NCBI RefSeq assembly: GCF_015265475.1
Contig: NZ_CP054493.1
Span: forward strand, 2,356,001-2,420,000
DNA: 64,000 nt
Reading direction: 5' to 3'
Origin: Candidatus Sulfurimonas marisnigri
Lineage (GTDB): Bacteria > Campylobacterota > Campylobacteria > Campylobacterales > Sulfurimonadaceae
Positions 781 to 16,185 of this stretch are shown here, piece by piece. The first letter of the stretch is position 1. Every line of letters begins with the position of its first letter. Under the pieces are notes generated by a model. It did no database searches, was not told where the DNA came from, and worked only from the letters and a program-made list of their open reading frames with translations. The position numbers and the translations under genes were made by a program.

Positions 781-2151
781 CTAATTTGAAGCAGCTGACT
801 GAGCTTCTGCCATTTGAGTAAACATTGATGAAGCCGAATTGAATCTACTAATCATTAAATCGTAGGCGATAAACTGTTTTTTAAGAATCGCATATTTATC
901 ATCAAGCTGTTCTGTGACAGAAATCTTTCTTTCCTCCAGCGTTGAAATAGATTCTGTAATAGAAGTTTTAAACTGGTCAAGAGTTGCATTATATTTTGTA
1001 TACCCTTCTATGATAGTTGACATATCAACAAATGCACCATCAACCACCGTTGTAGTTAAATCTGCATTAGTGTAAGTACCCCCAGCAAAAAATGCTTCTA
1101 CATTTGTTGAGTTATCATCTAGTGCTTTATTCAAAGTATCTTTATTCAAAGTCATAACTCCATCTTTATCGACATTGAACCCATAATCAAATAAAGAACC
1201 AACACCACCACCAACACCGCTAATCATATCTTCAATACTGCTTTTCATACCCTTAATAGTACTTTCTGAAGAAAATATACCCCTTTCCCCTGATTCTGTA
1301 CTTGGCTTTGTCATATTGTTTAGTTCAGTAATTGCTGCATTGTAATGCTCTACAAAACTATCAAATTTCTCCATTATAGTATCACGATTTTGAGCCACAC
1401 TTACAGAAGAGGTTCCAACTTCTTTGAGAGTAATATCTAAGCCAGTCACCAAATCACTTACATTATTGCTAGTACGAGTGATAGCTTGTCCATTAAATGT
1501 AAAGTTTGCATCAACGCCTGACTGTAATGCTGTTAATCCTATAGTTAAACGAGTGTCCTTTAGAGCTGCACTATTATCTGTCATTGTAATATTTTGTGTT
1601 GTTCCAGTATCAGCAGAACTAACAAACAAACGAAACTCACCGCTGTTTATCTGAACAACAGTAGCATCAACCTTTTCTCCAGCGACACTGTTAATAGCAT
1701 TTTTAAAATCATTTAAAGTTGTTGTTGCGTCATAATCAATTGTAAAGTCTACCCCATCAATATTTAAGTTCATGCTACCAGCCGCATTGGCGATCGTCTC
1801 TGTGCTAGCCGTAAAGGCACCAGATTCTTCTATCTGCTTTGTAGCTAAGTTACCAACTGTTAATGTGAAGTCTTGAATATCACTGTTAGCTGCTGCGACA
1901 ACTTCTACCGCGGTACCTGTTACATCAGAAGATCGCTCACCAAAAAGTGCATGACTTTTTAGTTCATTAATCGCATCTGTAAGGTTAGTCATATTAGCAT
2001 CAATAATTTCTAGTGCATCTTTTTTGTCACCCTCGTTTGCTAGATTTAAATCTATAGGCGTAATCCGACTTGATTCATCAGCAGCCCTCAATTGATCCAT
2101 AACGTCTTGTGTTAATATACCTGAGCCAACGCCCACTGAACTAATAGACAT
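781..2151 (-). CDS. fliD: Flagellar hook-associated protein 2 / filament cap FliD
   Basis: A 456-residue FliD. It forms the cap at the filament tip that folds incoming flagellin subunits, and it is exported by the flagellar type III system. The N-terminal part begins MSISSVGVGSGI and carries the conserved helix after it. The C-terminal third contains the FliD_C pattern (GIFSSESTIKGMKSSIEDMI, then a KDGVMTLNKDTLNKAL stretch) and ends in a coiled coil with FIAYDLMISRFNSASSMF. The length is typical. AGGA precedes the ATG. A sigma-28-type promoter lies about 50 bases upstream, and fliS and the fliT-like gene follow. Confidence 0.93.
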   Translation of the reverse strand: MSISSVGVGSGILTQDVMDQLRAADESSRITPIDLNLANEGDKKDALEIIDANMTNLTDAINELKSHALFGERSSDVTGTAVEVVAAANSDIQDFTLTVGNLATKQIEESGAFTASTETIANAAGSMNLNIDGVDFTIDYDATTTLNDFKNAINSVAGEKVDATVVQINSGEFRLFVSSADTGTTQNITMTDNSAALKDTRLTIGLTALQSGVDANFTFNGQAITRTSNNVSDLVTGLDITLKEVGTSSVSVAQNRDTIMEKFDSFVEHYNAAITELNNMTKPSTESGERGIFSSESTIKGMKSSIEDMISGVGGGVGSLFDYGFNVDKDGVMTLNKDTLNKALDDNSTNVEAFFAGGTYTNADLTTTVVDGAFVDMSTIIEGYTKYNATLDQFKTSITESISTLEERKISVTEQLDDKYAILKKQFIAYDLMISRFNSASSMFTQMAEAQSAASN

Positions 2152-2267: not shown

Positions 2268-3257
2268 TTGAGTTTACAAAACATACCTAAAGTGTCTAGT
2301 ATTATGCAAAGTCAAATATTAAACGTAATAAAATCAGAGGAAATCCACTCTTTACAAGACAACATTTTAAGTAAGTTTATTGAAGGAACTCTTTTCATAA
2401 TAAATGAAGACTTATCGCTGCATGGAATTATTACCGATGGTGATGTAAGAAAATGTTTTTCTAATAACTTATGCCATAATATAGAAGACAATATATCTTT
2501 AAATCCAAAAAAAATATTATCCTCACAAAGCGCATCCGATGCACTACTTGTTTTAAGAGAAAACCAAATAAATATCTTAGCCGTTGTTGATGAAAATAAT
2601 AAACTAATTGGCTACATAACGCTACATATGCTTTTGGATAGTTTCTCACCAGAGAGATTATATATAAGCGATGATGAATCTACAAATGACTCAAATGAGC
2701 AAAGACATTTGGCTAGATATAAATTTGCTACAAACTTTTTAGCTCAAAGTTCAGAGACTCTTGACTGTGCATGCGGTTCTGGATATGGCAGTAAAATGTT
2801 GTCATTATATTCAAATAGTGTATTGGGAGTTGACCTTTCAAATGATGCTATAACTTTTGCTAAACAAAATAACTTTTCAAGCAATATCAACTTTAAACAA
2901 AGCGACCTTTCAATGCTAGACTTTGATGCTTCTTCATTTGACAGCATCGTATCAATAGAGACATTAGAACATATTCCGCACGATACATTTTTGAACTTTT
3001 TAACAAATATATCTACTTGGATTAAAAGTGGCGGGGTATTTATTGGTTCATCTCCTATGCTCAGATATAAAGACAATAAGCCATACGTCACAAATCCATA
3101 CCACATAAACGAAATGCCAAAACAAGAGTTTATTAATGCAATAAAAACAAGACTAATAAACTTTGAAATACACTTTTACTATCAAGATCAAGACAGGTTT
3201 TTACCACTTTGTGATGAGCATACTGGTTTTTGTATAGTAGTAGCAAGGAAACGTTAA
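2268..3257 (+). CDS. CBS-domain / class I SAM methyltransferase fusion
   Basis: 329 residues. Residues ~20-125 form a tandem CBS pair, with GIITDGDVRK near 53-62 and GYITLHMLL near 115-123. CBS pairs usually bind adenosine ligands and are also found attached to sugar nucleotidyltransferases of flagellar glycan loci. Residues ~143-329 are a class I methyltransferase with glycine loop LDCACGSGYGS (165-175), an acidic strand end GVDLS and the ETLEHIPH motif. The start is TTG with AGGG upstream; no nearer ATG fits. It is the first gene of a six-gene operon, and the next ATG directly follows its stop. The substrate is unknown; by context it is a precursor of the flagellin modification. Confidence 0.75.
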   Translation: MSLQNIPKVSSIMQSQILNVIKSEEIHSLQDNILSKFIEGTLFIINEDLSLHGIITDGDVRKCFSNNLCHNIEDNISLNPKKILSSQSASDALLVLRENQINILAVVDENNKLIGYITLHMLLDSFSPERLYISDDESTNDSNEQRHLARYKFATNFLAQSSETLDCACGSGYGSKMLSLYSNSVLGVDLSNDAITFAKQNNFSSNINFKQSDLSMLDFDASSFDSIVSIETLEHIPHDTFLNFLTNISTWIKSGGVFIGSSPMLRYKDNKPYVTNPYHINEMPKQEFINAIKTRLINFEIHFYYQDQDRFLPLCDEHTGFCIVVARKR

Positions 3258-4124
3258 ATGGACTATAAACAGACCTTACAAAATAGTATAAATAGAATTG
3301 AAGAACTAGTTAGTAAAGATATTCATTTAAGTAATGAAGGATTTCCTTTGCCAAGCTGGATAGAGCTAAGTCCAATAGATGTCTGTAATAGAGCCTGTGT
3401 ATTTTGCCCAAAAAGTGATGATAGCATAGCGCCTAATCAAAACCAAAAAATGCTTCCAAAACTTTATGAAAAAATTGCAACAGAATTAAAAAATATAAAC
3501 TTTTCAGGGACTATAATGCTAGCAGGCTATGGTGAGCCGCTATTAAATAAAGATATTATAAACATGTGCAAAACTTTTAGTACATTTTGTAATGTGGAAA
3601 TAACTACAAACGGCGACCCATTAAATTTACAATATATTCAAGACTTATATAACGCTGGTCTTAATAAAATCATAGTAAGCATGTACGATGGTGAACACCA
3701 AATAGAAGAGTTTAAAAAACTATTTTTGGATGCCGATATATCAGAAGATAAATACATACTTCGGGATAGATGGTATACACAAGATGATAATTATGGAGTT
3801 AAACTTACAAATAGAGCTGGTGTATTAATAAATGAAAATAAAATAGATACGCATAAGCAGTGCTTTTACCCGTCATACTCTATGATGGTAGATTGGAATG
3901 GCGATGTCTTCTTGTGCACCCAAGATTGGAATAGACGTATAAAAACAGGAAACTTAATGATAAGTACAGTTATTGAAGTTTGGACATCACAAATACTTAA
4001 AAAATACAGAACACACCTTTCGAATGCTTCAAGGGACCTACCGCCGTGTAATAGATGTGATGCTAATGGAACACTGCATGGAGAAGAGCATGCAAAATTA
4101 TGGACTCAATATTATGAAAAATAA
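3258..4124 (+). CDS. Radical SAM protein with SPASM-like C-terminus
   Basis: 288 residues. The radical SAM CxxxCxxC is at residues 43-50 (CNRACVFC) and binds the 4Fe-4S cluster that cleaves S-adenosylmethionine. It is followed by the glycine motif GYGEPLL. The C-terminal part has several Cys (CFYPSYSMMVDWNG, FLCTQDW, PPCNRCDANG), like the auxiliary-cluster SPASM domain of enzymes acting on peptides, sugars or alcohols. It starts immediately after the stop of the CBS-methyltransferase gene and overlaps the aminotransferase start by 11 bases, so coupled translation is likely. The reaction is unknown; oxidation of a hydroxyl to a carbonyl for the next aminotransferase would fit the gene order, but this is inference. 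Confidence 0.8.
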   Translation: MDYKQTLQNSINRIEELVSKDIHLSNEGFPLPSWIELSPIDVCNRACVFCPKSDDSIAPNQNQKMLPKLYEKIATELKNINFSGTIMLAGYGEPLLNKDIINMCKTFSTFCNVEITTNGDPLNLQYIQDLYNAGLNKIIVSMYDGEHQIEEFKKLFLDADISEDKYILRDRWYTQDDNYGVKLTNRAGVLINENKIDTHKQCFYPSYSMMVDWNGDVFLCTQDWNRRIKTGNLMISTVIEVWTSQILKKYRTHLSNASRDLPPCNRCDANGTLHGEEHAKLWTQYYEK

Positions 4125-5391
4125 ATCTTTAGTTTTAAATGAAGGTTATGCTCCAGATGACAATAAATTATATATCAAAGAGTCTTATGATTGCTATATT
4201 AAAGATGTAAAAAATAATATTTATATTGATACAGCTATGGGTGGTGGAAGCTTTGTGCTTGGACACGCTCAAAAATTCATCCAAAATGAAATAATTAAGC
4301 AGCTTAAAAAAGGCTCATTATATACACTGCCTAATGAAAAAACGCATGAACTCGCATCATTACTAAATCAAGCAATTCCAAACTTTAATAGATTCGTATT
4401 TTGTTCAACTGGATCAGAAGCCACAATGCGTGCCATAAGAATTGCTAGAGCATATACAAACAAGAAGAAGATTGCAATTTTTAGTGGTAGCTGGCACGGA
4501 AGTCATGATTTACTTATGGTTGACGACACGTACGTAGGTAATGAGCAAGTTCCAAAAAAGATTTTGAAGTCAAACGGAATGCTTCATGATATACTTAAAA
4601 ACATCATTCTTCTTCCGTACAATCAAGAAAAAGCATTTGAAATCATCACAAAGAATAAAAATGACTTAGCTATGGTACTTATTGAGCCTGCACAGGGCTC
4701 AAATCCAAGAGATGATATTAAGGGCTTTTTGCAAAACTTACGAAAAACTACACAAGAGCACGATATTCTCTTAGGATTCGATGAAATAATAACAGGGTTT
4801 AGAGTTGCTCTTGGTGGAGCACAAGAATATTATGGGATAAAAGCTGATATAGCCACTTATGGCAAAGCAGTTGGAGGTGGTCTTCCATTAGCTGTAGTAG
4901 CAGGCACACAAAAAGTTATGCAAACCATAAAAGTAGGCACTAAAGAAAATCCACAGTCTATTTTTATGGGTGGAACTTTCTCTGCAAATCCTCTAAGTAT
5001 CACAGCATCTTATACTATGCTAAAGCATCTCATAAAAAATAAAAATAAAATCTATCCTAAACTCGAAAAAAAATCTAAGTACTTTAGAGATTCTATCAAT
5101 AAAATATGTCAGATAAATGAAGTATCCGCACATATGATAGGTATAAATTCAATGTTAAGATTTATCTTCACATCATTCCCAGTAACATCAAGACACTCCA
5201 GAGATCAACATGAAAAGAGCATAGAGATACAAAGCCTTTTTTATAAAAACATGCTAGAAAATCACAAAATTCATATAGCTTCCAATAGAATCAATTTTTT
5301 ATCAATAAAACATAAGAAAAAAGATATAGATAAAATTATAAAAGCTTATGAAATTGAAATCAAAAGATTTAAAGAAATGGGATATCTATAA
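4114..5391 (+). CDS. Class III PLP aminotransferase (glutamate-1-semialdehyde aminomutase-like)
   Basis: 425 residues, the usual length of the family. Visible motifs are the cofactor-phosphate region FCSTGSEATMRAIR, the PLP-contacting LGFDEIITGFR, and the Schiff-base lysine in TYGKAVGGGLP. The true haem-pathway hemL would not be expected in such a locus; members of this family in sugar clusters aminate keto-sugars or small carbonyl compounds. An ATG at 4114 overlapping the radical SAM gene is chosen. A longer frame from 3973 would lie wholly within the upstream gene and shows no family similarity. It probably adds an amino group to a product of its neighbours (inference). Confidence 0.82.
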   Translation: MKNKSLVLNEGYAPDDNKLYIKESYDCYIKDVKNNIYIDTAMGGGSFVLGHAQKFIQNEIIKQLKKGSLYTLPNEKTHELASLLNQAIPNFNRFVFCSTGSEATMRAIRIARAYTNKKKIAIFSGSWHGSHDLLMVDDTYVGNEQVPKKILKSNGMLHDILKNIILLPYNQEKAFEIITKNKNDLAMVLIEPAQGSNPRDDIKGFLQNLRKTTQEHDILLGFDEIITGFRVALGGAQEYYGIKADIATYGKAVGGGLPLAVVAGTQKVMQTIKVGTKENPQSIFMGGTFSANPLSITASYTMLKHLIKNKNKIYPKLEKKSKYFRDSINKICQINEVSAHMIGINSMLRFIFTSFPVTSRHSRDQHEKSIEIQSLFYKNMLENHKIHIASNRINFLSIKHKKKDIDKIIKAYEIEIKRFKEMGYL

Positions 5392-5393
5392 AC

Positions 5394-6044
5394 ATGTCAA
5401 AAGAATTTATTTTTAAAAAAGATGGTGATACAATTGAGTTTGTCGGTGATTTTAATGGTTTATATAAAAGTGAACAAAATCCTTGGGAGCAATCGAATGA
5501 TGAAGACTCTATATTGTCTAAATACTATAAATCTTCAAGACAAACTTTATATGAGAGCATTAAAGATATAAAAAATATAAAAAATGGATGCGAGGTTGGA
5601 TGTGGTCTTGGTTATGTTACGACAAGCCTAAATGAAATAGTTAAGTTTGATGGTATTGATATCAGTGATGTAGCCGTCAGCAAAGCATCAAAAAAATTCA
5701 AAAACATAGAATTCTTTGCAAATGACATTGGATCTAATATCTTTATTCATCCAAAGACTTATGATGTAGTAGTATTAAACCAAATACTGTGGTATATATT
5801 AAAAGACATGGATAATGTTGTAAAAAATATTGATACTATTTTAAATAAAAATGGATTTTTAATTATTTCTACACTATTTTTAAAAAATCAAAAATACGGC
5901 AATGAGATTATTGGCAGCTTTGATGATTTATTAAGATATTGGATTGAGACTGATAAATACAGAACAATAAAAGCAAATATAGACTATGGTGATGATAAAG
6001 AAGAGTATCAAGACAGCATACTAATTCTTCAAAGAAAAGATTAA
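5394..6044 (+). CDS. Class I SAM-dependent methyltransferase
   Basis: 216 residues. The glycine loop is GCEVGCGLGYVTTS (~65-78), followed by the acidic FDGIDIS and a post-motif I region DVVVLNQILWYIL. It resembles the methyltransferases found in surface-polysaccharide and nonulosonic acid clusters. The N-terminal ~50 residues contain NPWEQS, seen in small methyltransferases of the NodS/TPMT type. It follows the aminotransferase by two bases and abuts the first Maf gene, so it belongs to the same operon. The substrate cannot be read from sequence; methylation of a flagellar glycan precursor is the contextual guess. Confidence 0.75.
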   Translation: MSKEFIFKKDGDTIEFVGDFNGLYKSEQNPWEQSNDEDSILSKYYKSSRQTLYESIKDIKNIKNGCEVGCGLGYVTTSLNEIVKFDGIDISDVAVSKASKKFKNIEFFANDIGSNIFIHPKTYDVVVLNQILWYILKDMDNVVKNIDTILNKNGFLIISTLFLKNQKYGNEIIGSFDDLLRYWIETDKYRTIKANIDYGDDKEEYQDSILILQRKD

Positions 6045-8021
6045 ATGCACTCCAGCTTAGAACAATGTGCAACAATTACATTTCAGCAAAACATAGATTA
6101 TTTTAAAACTAAACACCCTCAAGTATTCGAAAAGTTATCTGCCCTAGAATCTGCTACAGATATTGGGTACTACCAAAATAAGTATGAGCTAGTTATTGAA
6201 AATGATAACTTTGATGTACTAGAGCTTTCATCAAGCATATATTTGTATAATAGAGAAATAAAAAAACACGCTGAGCTAGCTGCCAAAAGTGTTAATTATA
6301 AAAAAGACGAAAATTCTTTTGAGAGTTTTTCAAGAGAGAATTTTTCTATTGATGAACTAAATATATTTCAAAAGAAAAATAAATTTGAACATCACTTTAG
6401 CGCTTATGCCCCGATTATAAATTATACACAACAAAACACTAAAGAATATTCAGAACTCGAACGTATAGACAAGTTTATATTTTTTGGTGTAGGACTTGGT
6501 CTTCATATGTCAAGCACCGATGAAAAGATAAATGCAAAAGTATATTTTATTGTTGAAGATGATTTGGAACTATTTAAATTATCATTGTTTACAGTTAATT
6601 ACTCTGATTTAGCACAAAGTGCCAAACTTATATTTTCTATTTTTGAAGACAATTCTGAATATTCTAATTCCTCGCAAAAATTTTTAGAAACAGACTATCA
6701 ACTTGGTCACTATATTAAATATTTTCATCTTTTAAGTCATAATGAAGACAAAATATCACTATTTCATAAAGAGGTTTCTTCTCAACCTCACCTTGGCTTT
6801 TTCTATAACTCTTTACTTATACAATATTTAAAACCTTTGGAATATATATCTTCATCATCTAAATTTATAACTAAAAAGCTATCTTTGAATGACGACACTT
6901 TAAATAAAGAAAACTTTTTACTATTGGCTGCTGGTCCATCATTGCAAAAGAATATATCTTGGCTTAAGAAGTATCATACCTCCTTTATAGTTGTAGCTGT
7001 TACAGCAACACTGCCTTTTCTTGAAAAGAATAATATATCTCCAGATATAATTATAAATCTAGATGCATTTGATGGAATGAACAAGCAATTTGATCAAATA
7101 AAATCAACATCCTTTTTTAAAGATGCCATCTGTATATTTTCGGCTAGAACTCAAGAGAATATCAGTAAACATTTTAAAGATGAGCAAAAATTCTTTTTTG
7201 AGAGTGGAACAAAATATAAAACTTCGACATTAAAACCTATAGCACCATGTGTTGGCTCATTAACATATCAACTTCTTCTTCTTCTGCAGGCAAAAAACAT
7301 TTATATCCTTGGTCTTGATTTGGCAATAGACAAAAAAACTGGTAGAACACATTTAGACCTACATACAGATGCTAAAACATTAAATTTAAGCACTACAGAC
7401 TCATTCACTTTAAATTACCATGACAACCTAATTCAGCTTGATGGTAACTTCGAAGAAAAAGTTTTATCTACTTTTTATTTTAACGATTCTAGAATAATAA
7501 TTAATCATGCCACGAAAAATTTTAAATCAAACAACTCCAATATTTATAATCTTAGCGATGGGGTTAAATTTGATGAAATTCCAGCAAAAGAAACTGCAAG
7601 CCTAGATTTAGATAAAAAAAATCAAAATGCACGTGAGCATATACTAAATTTATGCACTAGCACATCTTCAAAACTTTTAAGTAAAGATGAATCAAAAACT
7701 CTAAAAAAGAAATTACAACATGCGCAAGAATTAAAGAAAATACTATCACACTACAAGACAATTGACGACATTGAAAAATATAATGAAATATTAAATATTA
7801 AAGATTTAAAGTCAAATGAGTTCGAGCTAAACAAAGTTATAAAAACATATATGAGGTATATATTAAGTTATATATTTGATTTTTTCAACAATCAAGACCT
7901 AAATAAAAGACAAGAGCATATAAATATATTGCATGATATATTTATATCTAACCTATCTGATATTATAGATATTTATATAAATAAATTACGGGAGAAACTA
8001 AATGAAAAATATAGAAGATGA
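6045..8021 (+). CDS. Motility accessory factor (Maf), DUF115 family, copy 1
   Basis: 658 residues. An N-terminal region ends with FGVGLGLHMS (~147) and a VEDDLELFKLSLF block. The central DUF115 domain begins at ~292 with LLAAGPSLQKN and continues with IINLDAF and YILGLDLAIDK. The C-terminus is helical. Maf proteins are cytoplasmic transferases in Campylobacter, Helicobacter and Aeromonas that attach nonulosonic acids to flagellin before export. It is a paralogue of the next gene, overlapping it by 20 bases, and it begins right after the methyltransferase stop. Its position between modification enzymes and flagellin genes supports flagellin as its target. Confidence 0.87.
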   Translation: MHSSLEQCATITFQQNIDYFKTKHPQVFEKLSALESATDIGYYQNKYELVIENDNFDVLELSSSIYLYNREIKKHAELAAKSVNYKKDENSFESFSRENFSIDELNIFQKKNKFEHHFSAYAPIINYTQQNTKEYSELERIDKFIFFGVGLGLHMSSTDEKINAKVYFIVEDDLELFKLSLFTVNYSDLAQSAKLIFSIFEDNSEYSNSSQKFLETDYQLGHYIKYFHLLSHNEDKISLFHKEVSSQPHLGFFYNSLLIQYLKPLEYISSSSKFITKKLSLNDDTLNKENFLLLAAGPSLQKNISWLKKYHTSFIVVAVTATLPFLEKNNISPDIIINLDAFDGMNKQFDQIKSTSFFKDAICIFSARTQENISKHFKDEQKFFFESGTKYKTSTLKPIAPCVGSLTYQLLLLLQAKNIYILGLDLAIDKKTGRTHLDLHTDAKTLNLSTTDSFTLNYHDNLIQLDGNFEEKVLSTFYFNDSRIIINHATKNFKSNNSNIYNLSDGVKFDEIPAKETASLDLDKKNQNAREHILNLCTSTSSKLLSKDESKTLKKKLQHAQELKKILSHYKTIDDIEKYNEILNIKDLKSNEFELNKVIKTYMRYILSYIFDFFNNQDLNKRQEHINILHDIFISNLSDIIDIYINKLREKLNEKYRR

Positions 8022-9999
8022 GGCAATAAATACATATCAGCAAAATATTAAATATTTACAAGAATCTCATCCAAAACTACATCAAGATTTACAAAACTTT
8101 GAATTAGCTATACAAAACAAACATTACGAACAACAATTTGACTTAGAATATATAGATAATAACTTTGATATAAAAGAAATTTCTACTCAAAAGTATATGT
8201 ATGGAAAAAAAACGAATGAAATTTCAGAATCTATTACTAAAAATATAAATTTTTTTAAAGCAGATCATACAATCGAATCCTTTGCGATGTTTCGAACATC
8301 TGAAGAATTTTTCAAAACAACTCAAGAACACTATCGTAGAGCAAGACAACATATATATCCAATAATGAATTACTATCTAGAGAATCAAACAAACAACCCT
8401 GAGATGAAAAAAATTGTTAAATTTATTTTTTTAGGTGTTGGTTTAGGCTTACATTTATCTACCATAGATGCCAAGATTCAAGCTTCAAACTATTTAATAA
8501 TAGAAGATGATATAGAAATTTTTAAACTTTCACTATTTACATGTAAGTATTACGAACTAGCAAAAAATGCAGAACTTACATTTTCAGTTTTAGAAGATAT
8601 TAATGCTTTTACAAATACATTTACCAACTTCCTTCGTAATGCTTATATATTTAATTATAAAATAAAATATTTTCATCTAAAAACTCATTCTAATGTTAAA
8701 TTAAAGCATATTCTCAGCATATTATCTAGCCAAGGATTTTCTTTTTTCCCTTATCAGCTTCAACTTGACAATTCAATCTCTGCTCTACCATACATAAAGA
8801 AAAAATATAGGTTTTTAAATGTATATAAGCCATTTAGTATACCTGTTCTTCAAGCTAAGCCTATCCTAATGCTTGCTGCAGGTCCATCATTAAGCAATAA
8901 TATAAAGTGGCTAAAATTGAACCATAACAAGTTTATTATTATAGCAGTAAGTGCAACTTTACAATTTTTACATAAATACAACATTGTGCCTGATATCGTA
9001 ACTCACGTTGATGGATCTGATTCTGTAATTGAATTATTTGAAGGATTTGATGCTAAAGAGTTTTTAAAAGACTCATTACTTCTTTTTTCTACTCAAACGA
9101 AGCATAATATAGTCTCAAAATTTGATAAAAATAATATATTTATGTTTGAAACATCCGCTAGTTATTTTTCAATTAAATTTAATTATTCATCCTCTTGTGT
9201 TGGTTCTTTTACTTACCTATTTTCTTTAAATTTAAATGCTAAAAGCACCTACATACTTGGCTTAGATTTATCTATAGACCAAGACACAGGAGACGATCAT
9301 TTATCTGATCATGTTGATCATCAAAGCATAGATATTCAAGATAAAACGAAGCTAGAAACAAATGTAAACGTTAGTAGTACTCTTATTCCTATAGAAGGAA
9401 ATTTTCAAGAGACTATATACACTACGCCTATTTTTCAAACTTCTATATCTACAATCTCTAGCTTCGCTTCAAAAATCGCAAATAATAATAATATTTATAA
9501 TATTAGTCATGGTGCTAAAATACAAAACGCAAATCCAATGAACATATCTGATATTGCTATTGATGAGATTTCAGACATTAACAAACAAGAAGTACGTAGA
9601 TCAATAAAAGAGTGTTTTTCCAAACAAAGCTTAGATAAGCTAAGTGATAATGATTTAAAGAAGATTAAAGATAGGCATGATTTTATAACAAGAATAAAAG
9701 TCTATTTAGATGAATACGCTAATAATATCTCATATTCAAACTACGATATATACCAAAAAAACTTTTTAGAATTGAGTAATAAAATATTAAGTTCTAACAA
9801 TGAAGATATATCTGATTTAAACAAAATATACCACTCATACTTTAAATATGCCCTTGCAGTTATTGAAGACTTTTTCAATACTAAAAATATCAAAAACACA
9901 AAAAGACATATTAAAAAGTTTGACAAAATGTTTCAAGAAGGACTACATAGTATATCTTCTCAACTCAATGATGCCTTTAATGGCTTACAAAATCAATAA
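8002..9999 (+). CDS. Motility accessory factor (Maf), DUF115 family, copy 2
   Basis: 665 residues with the same architecture as the upstream copy: LGVGLGLHLS near 145, an EDDIEIFKLSLF block, then DUF115 from ~290 with LAAGPSLSNNIKW, THVDGSD and YILGLDLSIDQD. The ATG at 8002 has a strong GGGAGA site and lies inside the end of the first copy. The two paralogues are clearly divergent, so they may use different sugars or different flagellin positions. The stop at 9997-9999 directly touches the stop of the convergent flagellin at 10000; no intergenic base is left. Confidence 0.87.
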   Translation: MKNIEDEAINTYQQNIKYLQESHPKLHQDLQNFELAIQNKHYEQQFDLEYIDNNFDIKEISTQKYMYGKKTNEISESITKNINFFKADHTIESFAMFRTSEEFFKTTQEHYRRARQHIYPIMNYYLENQTNNPEMKKIVKFIFLGVGLGLHLSTIDAKIQASNYLIIEDDIEIFKLSLFTCKYYELAKNAELTFSVLEDINAFTNTFTNFLRNAYIFNYKIKYFHLKTHSNVKLKHILSILSSQGFSFFPYQLQLDNSISALPYIKKKYRFLNVYKPFSIPVLQAKPILMLAAGPSLSNNIKWLKLNHNKFIIIAVSATLQFLHKYNIVPDIVTHVDGSDSVIELFEGFDAKEFLKDSLLLFSTQTKHNIVSKFDKNNIFMFETSASYFSIKFNYSSSCVGSFTYLFSLNLNAKSTYILGLDLSIDQDTGDDHLSDHVDHQSIDIQDKTKLETNVNVSSTLIPIEGNFQETIYTTPIFQTSISTISSFASKIANNNNIYNISHGAKIQNANPMNISDIAIDEISDINKQEVRRSIKECFSKQSLDKLSDNDLKKIKDRHDFITRIKVYLDEYANNISYSNYDIYQKNFLELSNKILSSNNEDISDLNKIYHSYFKYALAVIEDFFNTKNIKNTKRHIKKFDKMFQEGLHSISSQLNDAFNGLQNQ

Positions 10000-10800
10000 C
10001 TATTGAAGTAGTTTTAATACATTTTGTTGAACAGCATTAGCTTGACTCATAGCATACGAACCAGATTGAGCTAAAATGTTGTGTTTTGCAAATGTTGCAC
10101 TCTCTTGAGCAAAGTCAACATCACGGATATTTGATTCCGCAGCCGATACATTAACCTGTGTTGTAGAAATATTTCTAACAACTGACTCTAATGAGTTTTG
10201 TACAGCACCAAGAGTTGATCTACCAGTATTTAATACCCCAATAAGAGTATCCATAGTGGTAATCGCTGCAGTTGACAAAACAGCAGTAGATACATTAGGT
10301 GCAACTAATGCCGCAATATTTGGCATAGTAACAGATTTCGTATCAGCAGCTCGATGTCCAATATGAAAAGCAAGTGTTGAACCACCTAAAAGCACTTTAT
10401 CATTAAATGTTGTACTTGTAGATATTTGATTATATTCTGCTGTAAGCTCTGTCACTTCATTTGTAATAAATGCACGAGAAGCAGTATCTTGTGTATCATT
10501 GGCTGATTGAACGGCAAGAACTCTAATTCTTTTTGAAATGTTTAATTGCTCTTCCATTGCGCCATCTGCTGTTTGAATAAGAGCAACAGCATCATTTGAA
10601 TTTTTAACCGCTTGTCCCAAACCTTGAGACTGTGCTGAAAGTTTATTTGCAATTGCCAAACCAGATGCATCATCTGCAGCACGATTGATTCTAAGACCTG
10701 AACTTAGTGAATTAAGACTTTTATCAAGTCCAACATTATTCATTGAAGCGTTTCTGTGTGCGTTCATAGCACCTATGTTCGTGTTAATTCTAAAGCCCAT
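10000..10800 (-). CDS. Flagellin, copy 1 (sigma-54-type promoter, FlaB-like)
   Basis: A 266-residue flagellin with only the D0/D1 ends (MGFRINTNIGAMNAHRNA... and ...SQANAVQQNVLKLLQ) and a short middle, so D2/D3 are missing. The ends match the three sister copies almost residue for residue. Differences concentrate at about residues 140-185; copy 1 also has E instead of D in GAMEEQLN, V in GLGQAVK and K in VLKLLQ. It is the only copy behind a sigma-54-type promoter, the same division seen between flaB and flaA in Campylobacter and Helicobacter. Ser/Thr-rich central residues are plausible Maf glycosylation sites (inference). Confidence 0.93.
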   Translation of the reverse strand: MGFRINTNIGAMNAHRNASMNNVGLDKSLNSLSSGLRINRAADDASGLAIANKLSAQSQGLGQAVKNSNDAVALIQTADGAMEEQLNISKRIRVLAVQSANDTQDTASRAFITNEVTELTAEYNQISTSTTFNDKVLLGGSTLAFHIGHRAADTKSVTMPNIAALVAPNVSTAVLSTAAITTMDTLIGVLNTGRSTLGAVQNSLESVVRNISTTQVNVSAAESNIRDVDFAQESATFAKHNILAQSGSYAMSQANAVQQNVLKLLQ

Positions 10801-10834
10801 AATAAATCCTTTTTTATGGATAATTTATCATTAT

Positions 10835-10852
10835 AAGCAAAACTAGTTCCAA
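10835..10852 (-). promoter_or_regulatory. Sigma-54 (RpoN) promoter of flagellin copy 1
   Basis: The minus strand reads TTGGAACTAGTTTTGCTT, with the invariant GG and GC exactly ten bases apart. This fits the -24/-12 consensus TGGCAC-N5-TTGCW, and it lies about 35 bases before the flagellin ATG. Confidence 0.8.
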
Positions 10853-10921
10853 ATTTAATTTATTAAAGGGGAAGGATAAAAATTGCGCAGGGGCTTGCGC
10901 CCTTAACTCATCTACTGAAGC

Positions 10922-10962
10922 AGTAGGCGAAGCACATTTTCTAAAGAAACGTGTTCGCTACT
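10922..10962 (-). terminator. Long hairpin after flagellin copy 2
   Basis: The arms AGTAG-CGAA-CAC and GTG-TTCG-CTACT pair with single-base bulges and close on an inner TTTCT/AGAAA helix. It lies in the transcribed 3' region of copy 2. There is no run of T after it, so it may be an mRNA-stabilising hairpin rather than a terminator. Part of it (AGCACATTTTCTAAAGAAA) also occurs after copy 3. Confidence 0.45.
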
Positions 10963-10983
10963 TTGTAGCTCTAATGATTGTTA

Positions 10984-11784
10984 CTATTGTAACAATCTCA
11001 ACACGTTTTGCTGAACAGCATTAGCTTGGCTCATAGCATAAGAACCAGATTGAGCTAAAATATTGTGTTTTGCAAAGTTTGCACTCTCTTGCGCAAAGTC
11101 AACATCACGGATATTTGATTCCGCAGCTGTTACATTCACCTGTGTTGTAGAAATATTTCTAACAACTGACTCTAATGAGTTTTGTGTAGCACCAAGATTT
11201 GATCTACCAGTATTTAATGTACCGATTAGAGTATCCATAGTAGTAATCGCTGTAGCTGCTGTTCCCGCTGTAGTTACATCAGTTGAACCTAATACTGCAA
11301 CAAGTGGCATAGTAACAGCTTTTAAGTCTGTTGCTTTATGTCCAATATGAAAACTAAGTGCTGAACCACCTAAAAGCACTCTATCATTAAATGTTGTACT
11401 TGTAGATATTTGGTTGTATTCTGTAGTAAGCTCTGTAACTTCATTTGTAATAAATGCACGAGAAGCAGTATCTTGTGTATCATTGGCTGATTGAACTGCA
11501 AGAACTCTAATTCTTTTTGCAATATTGATTTGCTCATCCATTGCACCATCTGCTGTTTGAATAAGAGAAATAGCATCATTTGAATTTTTAATCGCTTGTC
11601 CTAAACCTTGAGACTGTGCTGAAAGTTTATTTGCAATTGCCAAACCAGATGCATCATCTGCAGCACGATTGATTCTAAGACCTGAACTTAGTGAATTAAG
11701 ACTTTTATCAAGTCCAACATTGTTCATTGAAGCATTTCTGTGTGCGTTCATAGCACCTATGTTTGTGTTTATTCTAAATCCCAT
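10984..11784 (-). CDS. Flagellin, copy 2
   Basis: A 266-residue flagellin, same D0/D1-only architecture as its neighbours. The first ~100 residues are nearly identical to copies 3 and 4 and the last ~80 differ at only a few positions. The variable stretch is about residues 140-185 (ALSFHIGHKATDLKAV and an ALG-STDVTTAG segment). It has a sigma-28-type promoter with an intact GTCGATCT element, a leader hairpin and AAGGA before the ATG. It forms its own transcription unit between the terminator of copy 3 and the hairpin at 10922-10962. It is exported and polymerised into the filament. Confidence 0.93.
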   Translation of the reverse strand: MGFRINTNIGAMNAHRNASMNNVGLDKSLNSLSSGLRINRAADDASGLAIANKLSAQSQGLGQAIKNSNDAISLIQTADGAMDEQINIAKRIRVLAVQSANDTQDTASRAFITNEVTELTTEYNQISTSTTFNDRVLLGGSALSFHIGHKATDLKAVTMPLVAVLGSTDVTTAGTAATAITTMDTLIGTLNTGRSNLGATQNSLESVVRNISTTQVNVTAAESNIRDVDFAQESANFAKHNILAQSGSYAMSQANAVQQNVLRLLQ

Positions 11785-11986: not shown

Positions 11987-12787
11987 TTACTGAAGTAATC
12001 TAAGAACGTTTTGTTGAACAGCATTAGCTTGACTCATAGCATAAGAACCAGATTGAGCTAAAATATTGTGTTTTGCAAAGTTTGCACTCTCTTGCGCAAA
12101 GTCAACATCACGGATATTTGATTCCGCAGCTGTTACATTCACCTGTGTTGTAGAAATATTTCTAATAACTGACTCTAATGAGTTTTGTGTAGCACCAAGA
12201 TTTGATCTACCAGTATTTAATGTACCGATTAGAGTATCCATAGTAGTAATCGCTGTTGCTGCTAAAGTTGCTGTTGTTACATCAGTAACAGCCAGTGTTG
12301 CAACAGTTGGCATAGTAACAGCTTTTAAGTCTGTTGCTTTATGTCCAATATGAAAACTAAGAGCTGAACCAGCTAAAAGCACTCTATCATTAAATGTTGT
12401 ACTTGTAGATATTTGGTTGTATTCTGTAGTAAGCTCTGTAACTTCATTTGTAATAAATGCACGAGAAGCAGCATCTTGAGTATCATTAGCTGATTGAACT
12501 GCAAGAACTCTAATTCTTTTAGCAATATTGATTTGCTCATCCATTGCACCATCTGCTGTTTGAATAAGAGCAACAGCATCATTTGAATTTTTAATCGCTT
12601 GTCCTAAACCTTGAGACTGTGCTGAAAGTTTATTTGCAATTGCCAAACCAGATGCATCATCTGCAGCACGATTGATTCTAAGACCTGAACTTAGTGAATT
12701 AAGACTTTTATCAAGTCCAACATTGTTCATTGAAGCGTTTCTGTGTGCGTTCATAGCACCGATGTTTGTGTTTATTCTAAATCCCAT
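11987..12787 (-). CDS. Flagellin, copy 3
   Basis: A 266-residue flagellin, closest to copy 2, with which it shares the ALSFHIGHKATDLKAV stretch; the two differ mainly around residues 157-175. The leader, hairpin and ribosome-binding site are nearly identical to those of copies 2 and 4. Unlike them, its sigma-28 -10 element is altered (see 12864-12890), so it may be weakly expressed although the reading frame is intact. A terminator and a remnant of a flagellin 3' end follow the gene. Ends with the standard flagellin C-terminal helix SQANAVQQNVLRLLQ, the part FliS binds. Confidence 0.93.
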   Translation of the reverse strand: MGFRINTNIGAMNAHRNASMNNVGLDKSLNSLSSGLRINRAADDASGLAIANKLSAQSQGLGQAIKNSNDAVALIQTADGAMDEQINIAKRIRVLAVQSANDTQDAASRAFITNEVTELTTEYNQISTSTTFNDRVLLAGSALSFHIGHKATDLKAVTMPTVATLAVTDVTTATLAATAITTMDTLIGTLNTGRSNLGATQNSLESVIRNISTTQVNVTAAESNIRDVDFAQESANFAKHNILAQSGSYAMSQANAVQQNVLRLLQ

Positions 12788-12863
12788 AATAAATCCTTTT
12801 TGGGTAAGAGCCTTTCGCTCCGGTTAATTTTTCAGCATCCTTGCTGAGGGTTACATGTAGAGT

Positions 12864-12890
12864 ACTTCAACGCTAAAGATAATAACTTTA
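12864..12890 (-). promoter_or_regulatory. Degenerate sigma-28 promoter of flagellin copy 3
   Basis: The -35 TAAAGTTA and the 11-base spacer are kept, the spacer identical to that of copy 2. The -10 reads GTTGAAGT in place of GTCGATCT, so the CGAT core is lost. It probably has reduced activity. Confidence 0.5.
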
Positions 12891-12900
12891 ATCTTTAACT

Positions 12901-12932
12901 AAAAAAGCCAAAGAGAAAAACTCCTTGGCTTT
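12901..12932 (-). terminator. Rho-independent terminator of flagellin copy 4
   Basis: Stem of 12904-12915 with 12921-12932 (AAAGCCAAAGAG / CTCCTTGGCTTT, one mismatch or wobble), five-base loop, then six T on the minus strand. It is a diverged duplicate of the terminator after copy 3. Confidence 0.75.
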
Positions 12933-12943
12933 AACTTCTTAGA

Positions 12944-13744
12944 TTATTGTAATAATCTAAGCACATTTTGCTGAACAGCATTAGCTTGACTCATAGCATA
13001 AGAACCAGATTGAGCTAAAATATTGTGTTTTGCAAAGTTTGCACTTTCTGCTGCAAAGTCAACATCACGGATATTTGATTCCGCAGCTGTTACATTTACT
13101 TGTGTTGTAGAAATATTTCTAACAACTGACTCTAATGAGTTTTGTGTAGCACCAAGATTTGATCTACCAGTATTTAATGTACCGATTAGAGTATCCATAG
13201 TAGTAATCGCTGCAGCTGCAGTTGCCGCTGTATTCACAACAGGTGCAACTAATGCTGCAACATTTGGCATAATAACAGCTTTCGTATCACCAGCTTTATG
13301 TCCGATATGAAAAGCAAGTGTTGAACCAGCTAAAAGCACTTTATCATTAAATGTTGTACTTGTAGATATTTGGTTGTATTCTGTAGTAAGCTCTGTAACT
13401 TCATTTGTAATAAATGCACGAGAAGCAGTATCTTGTGTATCATTGGCTGATTGAACTGCAAGAACTCTAATTCTTTTAGCAATATTAACCTGCTCATCCA
13501 TTGCACCATCTGCTGTTTGAATAAGAGAAATAGCATCATTTGAATTTTTAATCGCTTGTCCTAAACCTTGAGACTGTGCTGAAAGTTTATTTGCAATTGC
13601 CAAACCAGATGCATCATCTGCAGCACGATTGATTCTAAGACCTGAACTTAGTGAATTAAGACTTTTATCAAGTCCAACATTGTTCATTGAAGCGTTTCTG
13701 TGTGCGTTCATAGCACCTATGTTTGTGTTTATTCTAAATCCCAT
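12944..13744 (-). CDS. Flagellin, copy 4 (distal gene of the array, FlaA-like)
   Basis: A 266-residue flagellin with the D0/D1 ends of its sisters. Its centre (ALAFHIGHKAGDTKAV, then an ALVAP segment) resembles copy 1 more than copies 2 and 3, which suggests mosaic exchange. It carries DVDFAAESANFAKH where copies 2 and 3 have DVDFAQESANFAKH. It has the best sigma-28-type promoter of the array, making it the likely major filament subunit (inference). The gene and stop coincide with a short palindrome (GATTATTGTAATAATC). Divergent from topA, with ~200 bases between them. Confidence 0.93.
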   Translation of the reverse strand: MGFRINTNIGAMNAHRNASMNNVGLDKSLNSLSSGLRINRAADDASGLAIANKLSAQSQGLGQAIKNSNDAISLIQTADGAMDEQVNIAKRIRVLAVQSANDTQDTASRAFITNEVTELTTEYNQISTSTTFNDKVLLAGSTLAFHIGHKAGDTKAVIMPNVAALVAPVVNTAATAAAAITTMDTLIGTLNTGRSNLGATQNSLESVVRNISTTQVNVTAAESNIRDVDFAAESANFAKHNILAQSGSYAMSQANAVQQNVLRLLQ

Positions 13745-13944: not shown

Positions 13945-16185
13945 TTGAACTTAATTATCGTCGAATCACCAGCTAAAGCTAAAACTATCAAAAACTTCCT
14001 TGGCAAGGAGTATGAGGTTATCGCATCCAAAGGACATATACGAGATTTACCTAAGTCTCGCTTTGGAATAACCGTAGAAGAAGAGACTCAACATCTTGTA
14101 CCGGCCTACAGTGTTGCAAAAGAGAACTCTGCCATTGTAAAAGAGATTAAAGCGCTTGCAAAGAAAGCTGATACGATATATATCGCGACCGATGAGGATC
14201 GTGAGGGTGAGGCTATAGGATGGCATATTGCCCATGCTATAAAAAAAGATCCTGAGGAACTTCCTCGTATAGTTTTTCATGAAATTACAGAGACTGCGAT
14301 AAAACATGCACTTGAAAATGCTCGTAAGATAGATATGGATATGGTAAATGCACAACAAGCTCGTCGTATGCTTGACCGTGTTGTTGGTTATAAACTATCG
14401 CCTCTACTAGCTTCAAAAATTCAAAAAGGTCTTTCAGGTGGTCGTGTTCAATCTTCAACCCTTAAACTTGTAGTTGACCGTGAAAGGGAGATAAAAGCAT
14501 TTATCCCAGTTGAATACTGGACTATAGATACGCTGTTTAAAAAAGACATTGAAGCAACTCTTACAACACATATGGGTGTTAAATTATCAAAAATGTCTAT
14601 AGAGGACAAAGATGATGCAGAGGCTATAGAGAAAAGTGTTAAAGCAGATAGTTTTACAATCTCTAAAATAGAGACTAAAACAAGAAATAGCAAAACCCCA
14701 CCACCATTTATGACTTCAACTCTACAACAAACTGCTTCATCTAAATTAGGATTTACTCCTAAAAAGACTATGATGGTAGCACAGGCACTTTACGAGGGTG
14801 TAAAAACTCCTAGTGGAACTTCTGGTGTTATTACATATATGAGAACAGACTCATTAAACCTTGCCCATGAAGCTGTAACTGGTGTTCGTGGTGTAATAGA
14901 GAGTAGATTTGGTGCAAAATACCTGCCAAAAGAGCCAAAGGTTTATAACAAAAAATCTAAAGGTGCTCAAGAGGCTCACGAAGCTATCCGTCCGACAATG
15001 CTACAGTTTACTCCAGAGGTTGCGTCATCATTTTTAAAAGCTGATGAGATTAAACTTTACCGTCTAATTTATGAGAGATTTATGTCTTGCCAAATGGAAG
15101 ATGCTGTATTTGAGCAACAAAGTATAATTTTTACTGGTAAAGAGAGTGAATATAGAGCAAGTGGTAGAAAACTTACTTTTGATGGCTTTTATGCACTAAC
15201 TGGAGCTGAAGATAAAGATAAACTTCTTCCAACATTAGTAGAGGGTGATAAAGCTGATATACAAAGTATCAAGCCTGAGCAACATTTCACTGAGCCACCG
15301 GCAAGGTATTCTGAGGCTGCACTAATTAAAAAACTAGAGAGTGAAGGTGTAGGACGTCCTTCTACCTATGCTCCAACTATTGCGACACTTAGTGGTCGTA
15401 CTTATGTAACTATTGAGAAAAAACAAATTATTCCAACTGAGATTGCATTTACTGTAACTGATATGCTGGAGAAAAACTTTGCTAACATAGTTGACATCTC
15501 TTTTACAGCCAACATGGAGGAGAAACTTGATGAAGTTGCAGAGGGAAATAGCAACTGGCAAGAACTTTTAAGTGAATTTTACTTTCCTTTTATGGAACAG
15601 GTGGCTGAAGGTAAAGAGAAGATTGTTTCTTTAAAACTTGCTAAGCCTCTTGGCAGAGCTTGTCCTAAATGTGGCGAAGAGTTACTTCTTCGATCTGGTA
15701 GATTCGGAAATTTTGTTGCATGTAGCGGCTTTCCTGCATGTAAATACACGGAGCAAGTTGATGCAGATGGAAATAAAGTAGAAGTAGTAGTTGAGACTAG
15801 TGATGTAAAGTGTGAAAAATGTGGCAAAGATATGATTGTGAAAAATGGTAGAAATGGCCAATTTTTAGCATGTAGTGATTATCCTGATTGTAAAAATACT
15901 AAGAGTATAAGTGTTGAAGAAAAAACTTCTGAAACTCCTTGCCCTGACTGTGGTGGTAAAATAAGTCTTAAAAATTCTCGTCGTGGTCCTTTTTGGGGAT
16001 GTGAGAATTATCCTGATTGTAAATTTATATCCAAATTCGAACCAACAAAAATAAAATGTGAAGAAAAAGGGTGTAATGGTCTCTTAGCTGAAAGAACTTA
16101 TAGAAAAAAAGAAGTTTATGAGTGTGTTAAATGTAAAGCTAGAACACCAAGAGAAGAAGAAACGAAAGAAGAGAGTAAAGAATAG
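13945..16185 (+). CDS. topA: DNA topoisomerase I
   Basis: 746 residues. The enzyme relaxes negative supercoils. The TOPRIM domain is at 1-~115, with ESPAKAKTI (Glu7) and the DEDREGE acidic motif (83-89). The type IA core has GLSGGRVQSSTLKLV (162-176) and the active-site Tyr298 in VITYMRTDS. The C-terminus has four Cys zinc-ribbon units: CPKCGEELLL, CEKCGKDMIV, CPDCGGKISL, and a last CEEKGCNG...CVKC. The start is TTG with AGGA ten bases upstream, giving the conserved MNLIIVESPAKAKTI N-terminus. The first gene of topA-yfcE-bioB. Confidence 0.96.
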   Translation: MNLIIVESPAKAKTIKNFLGKEYEVIASKGHIRDLPKSRFGITVEEETQHLVPAYSVAKENSAIVKEIKALAKKADTIYIATDEDREGEAIGWHIAHAIKKDPEELPRIVFHEITETAIKHALENARKIDMDMVNAQQARRMLDRVVGYKLSPLLASKIQKGLSGGRVQSSTLKLVVDREREIKAFIPVEYWTIDTLFKKDIEATLTTHMGVKLSKMSIEDKDDAEAIEKSVKADSFTISKIETKTRNSKTPPPFMTSTLQQTASSKLGFTPKKTMMVAQALYEGVKTPSGTSGVITYMRTDSLNLAHEAVTGVRGVIESRFGAKYLPKEPKVYNKKSKGAQEAHEAIRPTMLQFTPEVASSFLKADEIKLYRLIYERFMSCQMEDAVFEQQSIIFTGKESEYRASGRKLTFDGFYALTGAEDKDKLLPTLVEGDKADIQSIKPEQHFTEPPARYSEAALIKKLESEGVGRPSTYAPTIATLSGRTYVTIEKKQIIPTEIAFTVTDMLEKNFANIVDISFTANMEEKLDEVAEGNSNWQELLSEFYFPFMEQVAEGKEKIVSLKLAKPLGRACPKCGEELLLRSGRFGNFVACSGFPACKYTEQVDADGNKVEVVVETSDVKCEKCGKDMIVKNGRNGQFLACSDYPDCKNTKSISVEEKTSETPCPDCGGKISLKNSRRGPFWGCENYPDCKFISKFEPTKIKCEEKGCNGLLAERTYRKKEVYECVKCKARTPREEETKEESKE

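Follow-up and report, generated by a model that had tools for sequence, protein, structure and literature searches.

In Campylobacter, Helicobacter and Aeromonas, flagellins are O-glycosylated with pseudaminic (Pse) or legionaminic (Leg) acid by Maf proteins, the maf genes lying beside those of the flagellins and a nonulosonate pathway being present in the genome. A six-gene operon of Candidatus Sulfurimonas marisnigri has the same setting and is a variant of Maf-dependent flagellin glycosylation with a new enzyme set. Unlike the Maf loci described in the papers searched, it encodes a BtrN-type radical S-adenosylmethionine (SAM) enzyme, a class III aminotransferase and a methyltransferase fused to a pair of CBS domains (the CBS-methyltransferase). 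The operon lies in a stretch of 64,000 nucleotides, here called the window, which covers positions 2356001-2420000 of the single contig of 2,488,728 bases that makes up the genome (G000). Positions without a genome or locus label are those of the window. The explanation preferred here, given about an even chance of being right, is that this flagellin-glycosylation locus contains a tailoring cassette that would add a methylated amine to a nonulosonic acid, probably legionaminic acid, which is then transferred by the Mafs.

The chemistry proposed for the cassette has two described parallels. In butirosin biosynthesis amination follows oxidation, and the aminotransferase that partners BtrN is of a class other than class III. 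BtrN is a radical SAM dehydrogenase with a twitch domain, and the enzyme of the operon has the same seven cysteines, although the operon is without the cyclase of the butirosin system and its setting is flagellar. In the Kdo8N route, amination by KdnA comes after the step carried out by KdnB, which in Shewanella is an oxidation (PMC5125639). One hydroxyl of an ulosonic acid would likewise be oxidised and then aminated here, but KdnB belongs to the iron-containing alcohol dehydrogenase family and its route concerns the 3-deoxy-D-manno-octulosonic acid (Kdo) of lipopolysaccharide, whereas a radical SAM enzyme and a flagellar sugar would be involved in the present case.

A literature search found no described flagellin-glycosylation locus with a BtrN-type radical SAM enzyme, a class III aminotransferase or a CBS-methyltransferase. 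In the open-licence literature nonulosonic acids and radical SAM were not found together, and flagellin glycosylation and radical SAM coincided only in the searchable text of a Rickettsia genome paper. Radical SAM genes have been listed in such regions before, since a phase-variation survey includes two among the phase-variable methyltransferase genes of Campylobacter fetus, with no function stated in its entry for them (PMC6321876).

The operon and the flagellar slot

The six genes are all on the forward strand. The first, with a TTG start, encodes the CBS-domain pair and class I SAM methyltransferase fusion (329 amino acids (aa), 2268-3257), followed by the radical SAM twitch protein (288 aa, 3258-4124), a class III pyridoxal phosphate (PLP) aminotransferase (425 aa, 4114-5391), a second class I SAM methyltransferase (216 aa, 5394-6044), and the glycosyltransferases Maf1 (658 aa, 6045-8021) and Maf2 (665 aa, 8002-9999). 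For the aminotransferase the ATG at 4114 was chosen as the start, the mechanical open reading frame opening at 3973. Pfam agrees with this gene order as given by the initial annotation, and the tight packing it had described, with overlaps or gaps of no more than two bases, holds because the junctions are 0, -11, +2, 0 and -20 bases.

The operon sits, as had also been noted, between fliD and four flagellin genes. The filament cap gene fliD (781-2151, reverse strand) is divergent from the operon, 116 bases upstream, and forms the left border of the slot. The flagellin genes (10000-10800, 10984-11784, 11987-12787 and 12944-13744, reverse strand) encode the presumed acceptors, 266 aa each and 88-96% identical to one another. 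These fliD and flagellin assignments are best NCBIfam matches below the cut-off. The stop codon of the last gene of the operon abuts that of the first, convergent, flagellin gene. On the right the slot is closed by topA (13945-16185, forward strand). In 1-kb segments the GC content of the operon is 26-35%, compared with 34-39% in the surroundings.

The slot was compared across genomes with topA as the anchor, which was matched in 40 of 41 genomes including G000. From the other 39, 20 loci were picked by kinship and contig room, 17 of the same genus and three from other families, and were surveyed by blastp with fliD, flagellin, topA, three Mafs, Leg genes and Pse genes as queries. The PseB, PseC and PseI queries exceed the curated cut-offs where scanned. 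A flagellin gene adjoins topA in 12 of the 17 same-genus loci, and a Maf adjoins the flagellin in 11 of these 12; the twelfth (G003) is cut short by a contig end. Beside the Maf there is a Pse-type set in three genomes (G006, G019 and G005) and a Leg-type set in three others (G009, G011 and G020). The slot is closed by fliD in G006, G019, G005 and G009, while for G011 and G020 the sequence that was read does not include it. A lone Maf pair lies between fliD and flagellin in G021, and in G016, G007, G014 and G017 the Maf is accompanied by other genes or a contig end. Four same-genus loci (G010, G004, G012 and G024) have no flagellin near topA, that of G015 is cut off, and none of the three loci from other families contains a Maf. 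In another genus of the family (G137) the order is topA, two flagellins, Maf, PseI ... PseC, fliD. Judged by gene order, this genus exchanges the sugar genes of its flagella at the site next to the flagellins and topA, and in G000 the four-gene set of CBS-methyltransferase, radical SAM enzyme, aminotransferase and methyltransferase occupies the place of the sugar-making genes.

Both Mafs of the operon carry Maf_flag10_N and MptE-like domains above the cut-off, are far below the cut-off of the curated PseD model, and are the only MptE-like matches in G000. They are 35% identical to each other. Maf1 has an orthologue (48%) beside the Pse genes of G005, where there is also an orthologue of Maf2 (41%). 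In a tree of 18 Mafs, Maf1 groups with one copy each from G005 and G021 (97/99) and Maf2 with the other G005 and G021 copies (95/97). The Maf pair is therefore old, and it is the adjoining genes that have changed. The assignment of the operon to flagellin modification is borne out by the slot comparison and by these orthologues, which in G005 have Pse genes as neighbours and in G021 are flanked by fliD and flagellin. Family and place together argue strongly that Maf1 and Maf2 would transfer the sugar to flagellin.

A pattern search found a sigma-54-like site before flagellin 1 (10851, reverse strand) and sigma-28-like sites before flagellin 4 (13850, reverse strand) and fliD (2224, reverse strand); neither pattern placed a promoter directly before the operon. 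Sigma-70-like sites between 2000 and 14000 number 44, fewer than in shuffles (62.9).

The enzymes of the cassette

Against solved structures, the radical SAM protein matches BtrN best by far (E 9.6e-22, residues 31-268), the second-ranked being another radical SAM enzyme at E 0.0018. Its R186 falls in the alignment on BtrN residue 152, the catalytic arginine. The CX3CX2C motif of the SAM cluster is present as C43, C47 and C50, which pair with the SAM-cluster cysteines 16, 20 and 23 of BtrN, and C202, C220, C264 and C267 pair with BtrN cysteines 169, 187, 232 and 235, the auxiliary cluster being ligated by four cysteines in BtrN (PMC9012708). These residues were paired by hand count along the alignment with the 4m7s chain. 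All seven cluster cysteines are kept in the 11 aligned rows, that of the window included, and the arginine in ten, one viral copy having alanine. The 25 NCBIfam matches of the protein are all below curated cut-offs, thus no named family claims it. By these alignments the protein is a homologue of the BtrN-type alcohol dehydrogenase. The earlier radical SAM/SPASM label is right in so far as Pfam gives SPASM, but the four C-terminal cysteines match the single auxiliary cluster of BtrN and therefore a twitch domain. The reaction of BtrN is a two-electron oxidation (PMC9012708).

The aminotransferase has a clear Aminotran_3 domain (170.6 bits, cut-off 30.5), and its best solved matches are a mycosubtilin synthase domain and glutamate-semialdehyde aminomutases. 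A role as a second HemL (glutamate-1-semialdehyde aminomutase) was considered and rejected, the HemL-like score of 304.5 bits being below the equivalog cut-off of 527.3.

The neighbours of the radical SAM gene were compared in the nine cellular genomes with a match at E <= 1e-20 (G000, G035, G416, G618, G101, G075, G137, G328 and G529). A weaker match in G054 (E 1.4e-16, 26%) is outside this threshold. In five of the nine, a PLP aminotransferase is no more than two genes away. It is of class III in G000, G035 and G618, with 68% identical copies of the G000 enzyme in G035 and G618, and belongs to another class, HisC-like, in G416, where it is directly next, and in G101, where it is one gene further away. 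The presence of two different aminotransferase classes in this position supports oxidation followed by amination. The earlier suggestion of a hydroxyl that is first oxidised by the radical SAM enzyme and then aminated is thus strengthened, both by the homology to BtrN and by the other-class neighbours. The evidence is good, but not decisive, that a ketone produced by the radical SAM enzyme would be what the aminotransferase aminates.

A viral contig (L075, IMGVR_UViG_3300032401_000018) carries, at 7866-8783, 10492-11388 and 12677-13600, two BtrN-like radical SAM genes, 31-35% identical to that of the window, and a HisC-like gene, all within about 6 kb. Scans of viral contigs with the CBS-methyltransferase and with the aminotransferase gave no matches. 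A scan of genome contigs with the aminotransferase gave 17 loci in other phyla at 23-35% identity, and the four that were mapped (L032-L035) contain no match to the radical SAM enzyme, the CBS-methyltransferase or the second methyltransferase.

NodS, an aminosugar N-methyltransferase, is the sole solved-structure match of the second methyltransferase, and a weak one (E 7e-5). The nearest named structures for the first methyltransferase domain are phosphoethanolamine N-methyltransferases, also weak (E about 1e-9) and ranked behind an unnamed 'methyltransferase'. Both enzymes thus point weakly to N-methylation. N-methylated nonulosonates are known from flagella, with PtmH N-methylating Leg (PMC6003734) and Leg5GluNMe7Ac as a further case (PMC13317340).

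The CBS pair of the first gene (2268-2672) aligns with those of two other G000 proteins, a KpsF/KdsD-like isomerase, which exceeds the KpsF subfamily cut-off, and a PtmE-like nucleotidyltransferase, although in a set of three sequences the E-values mean little. Both of these proteins belong to ulosonic-acid pathways. The CBS pairs of many proteins also match, among them those of arabinose-5-phosphate isomerase in structures 4o9k and 3k2v, both complexes with the cytidine monophosphate (CMP) conjugate of Kdo. From this kinship and these matches comes the idea, and it is no more than that, that the CBS pair may sense a CMP-ulosonate.

Source of the sugar and spread of the cassette

The initial annotation had found no Pse or Leg synthase gene. 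This stands for the window, where the whole-genome search placed no NeuB-family synthase, but the genome does hold one, the sole match, at 1848932-1849660 of G000, 0.5 Mb away. It belongs to a legionaminic-type cluster (L030, G000:C1:1840801-1852634) that encodes a LegB-like dehydratase (Polysacc_synt_2), LegC, a PglD/hexapeptide protein, the synthase and a NeuC/LegG-like epimerase, and further a PtmE-like CBS nucleotidyltransferase, a cytidylyltransferase, a short-chain dehydrogenase/reductase (SDR), a formyltransferase, a PIG-L deacetylase and a carbamoyltransferase. The LegC aminotransferase scores 562 bits against a cut-off of 420. The cluster is read as legionaminic from LegB, LegC and the gene content. 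In G416, genes 74-81% identical to its LegB, LegC and LegI (66% for LegH) lie beside flagellins and a Maf, the latter 29-30% identical to the Mafs of the window, and this favours Leg as the flagellar sugar in G000. A NeuB-family synthase was found in all six of the other genomes tested that have a radical SAM homologue, and in four of them (G416, G075, G137 and G328) the two genes are no more than about 15 kb apart, but as 9 of 14 control genomes also have one, the co-occurrence is weak by itself.

The radical SAM gene is rare. At E <= 1e-20 a search of the order found it in 6 of 398 genomes, one of the family in 4 of 228, and one of the family of G416 in 3 of 104, these sets overlapping. The CBS-methyltransferase was matched in 1 of 348 genomes across the order, which understates its spread, since G035, G416 and G618 would match and were evidently outside the draw. 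All four cassette genes occur in G000, G035 and G618, while G416 has the CBS-methyltransferase (60%) and the radical SAM gene (73%) with the HisC-like gene. No other locus that was read has the full six-gene order.

In G035, which belongs to the same genus, topA is followed by two small toxin-antitoxin-like genes, a tetratricopeptide repeat (TPR) protein, the radical SAM enzyme, the aminotransferase and the methyltransferase, with a convergent CBS-methyltransferase after which the contig ends. There is no flagellin match on this contig and no Maf was found in the genome, which is 85% complete. Two NeuB-family genes are present, one in a Leg-type cluster. The TPR protein recalls FlmG of Caulobacter, which combines TPR and a GT-B glycosyltransferase in a genome without a Maf (PMC7591256), in that it may pair TPR with a glycosyltransferase family 9 (GT9)-like family. 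When the C-terminal parts of six family members were aligned, five of them matched Glyco_transf_9, with E values of up to 1 accepted and 2.2e-5 as the best; unlike these, the C-terminal part of the G035 protein itself matches no family, and the profile of this C-terminal family has no solved-structure match. A relative of this protein (L094, 7242-8909) lies in G016 inside a cluster of PseI, PseB, PseC and cytidylyltransferase genes next to fliD and is a candidate FlmG-type flagellin transferase; G016 also has a Maf beside flagellin elsewhere.

The order in G618 (85% complete, 5% contamination) is CBS-methyltransferase, methyltransferase, radical SAM, aminotransferase, and beyond these are SIS, Gfo/Idh, SDR, dehydroquinate (DHQ)-synthase-like, 2-hydroxyacid dehydrogenase and cytidylyltransferase genes. 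The DHQ-synthase-like gene, the second of its kind in G618 and of the sugar phosphate cyclase family (L078, 8524-9597), is 4 kb from the cassette and, with the 2-hydroxyacid dehydrogenase and cytidylyltransferase genes, may belong to a cyclitol pathway. The cluster around the G416 pair contains a NeuB-family synthase that falls short of both curated cut-offs, a cytidylyltransferase, WecE-like and class III aminotransferases, an acyltransferase and an ATP-binding cassette (ABC) exporter. In four genomes (L056, L057, L058 and L079) another cluster recurs, with a cytidylyltransferase-like gene, another gene, a BtrN-like radical SAM gene, an SDR-like gene and a 2-hydroxyacid dehydrogenase-like gene, and a NeuB-family gene nearby. 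The 'another gene' is an FkbM methyltransferase in L058, the only locus scanned.

Proposed pathway and alternatives

It is proposed that a CMP-nonulosonate of the legionaminic type would be made at the separate locus. The radical SAM enzyme would take two electrons from one hydroxyl of the sugar or of a precursor, as BtrN does, and the class III aminotransferase would convert the ketone to an amine. The methyltransferases would then methylate the amine, the CBS pair of the first perhaps acting as the CMP-ulosonate sensor, and Maf1 and Maf2 would pass the amino sugar to serine or threonine residues of the four flagellins. There is moderate confidence that a nonulosonate is the substrate of the cassette. 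The order of events is fairly strongly indicated for oxidation and amination and weakly for the site of the methyl group. A bolder version is that the product would be a legionaminic derivative on the flagellum with a ring or side-chain hydroxyl oxidised in the manner of BtrN, aminated and (di)methylated, and so the first nonulosonic acid to depend on radical SAM chemistry. Its cassette would travel between loci for flagellar and for other sugars and function with either a Maf or an FlmG-like transferase; this version is put forward tentatively, at somewhat less than an even chance.

Several observations weigh against the preferred explanation. The L030 cluster adjoins a PglB-like gene (636 bits, cut-off 1300), so its sugar may serve another glycan. 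Its synthase passes the cut-off for NeuB (N-acetylneuraminate synthase) and not that for PseI, which leaves the legionaminic label to LegB, LegC and the gene content. The Mafs closest to those of the window, in G005, adjoin Pse rather than Leg genes, and the donor of the Mafs here is therefore not settled. No aminotransferase adjoins the radical SAM gene in four of the nine genomes (G075, G137, G328 and G529, 33-38% identity). N-methylation draws on weak structure matches, and an AlphaFold prediction for the radical SAM protein and two viral-contig relatives had a mean pLDDT (predicted local distance difference test score) of 52 and was not used. In addition, the stretches read of G416 (L054) and G618 (L078) have no fliD, flagellin or Maf match, Mafs elsewhere in G618 not having been searched for. 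The four upstream genes had been tied to motility, and this does not hold for the two in G416 and the four in G618, which goes part of the way towards an operon found mostly away from motility genes. With no flagellar gene seen beside these copies, the four-gene set looks like a portable sugar-tailoring cassette that is not strictly flagellar.

It is possible, though unlikely, that the cassette instead builds a separate small methylated amino compound, an aminocyclitol or amino-alcohol, that caps the flagellar sugar. The substrate of BtrN itself is an aminocyclitol, but Mafs are not known to transfer anything other than ulosonates. The second DHQ-synthase-like gene of G618 is in keeping with such a compound and is the reason that a sugar phosphate cyclase was sought in G000, but only the single DHQ_synthase match expected for AroB is there. 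N-methylated amino-acid caps do occur, N-methyl- and N,N-dimethylthreonine capping the flagellin glycans of Clostridioides difficile and Pseudomonas aeruginosa (PMC11833859), but Pfam finds no nucleotidyltransferase or phosphotransferase in the operon that could attach a cap.

The G416 half-set, clustered with its synthase, cytidylyltransferase, acyltransferase and ABC exporter, and the G618 set, near other sugar genes and again without a flagellar gene in view, would also suit a cassette that serves a cell-surface polysaccharide and has been inserted in the flagellar operon, with the Mafs transferring an untailored nonulosonic acid. This is improbable given that the cassette genes overlap or abut one another and the Mafs, and that G035, another member of the genus, likewise carries the set a few genes away from topA, beside the TPR protein of the GT9-like family. 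It is very improbable that the methyltransferases act on lysines of the flagellin protein, with the other two enzymes acting on an unrelated metabolite. A dedicated enzyme for this, FliB, exists (PMC8598068), but no FliB family is among the matches listed, which for the CBS-methyltransferase are the best 25 of 34 NCBIfam matches, and both methyltransferases travel with the radical SAM enzyme and the aminotransferase in G618, where no flagellin was seen.

If the preferred explanation of a tailored flagellar nonulosonic acid is right, radical chemistry joins the bacterial routes for diversifying flagellar sugars, and the operon provides a set of genes with which the making of a new amino sugar can be tested. 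It would also suggest that tailoring genes can pass as one cassette from flagellar loci to those of other sugars or back, and from one type of flagellin glycosyltransferase to another. With a methylated sugar that is positively charged, the surface presented by the flagellum to phages and antibodies would be altered.

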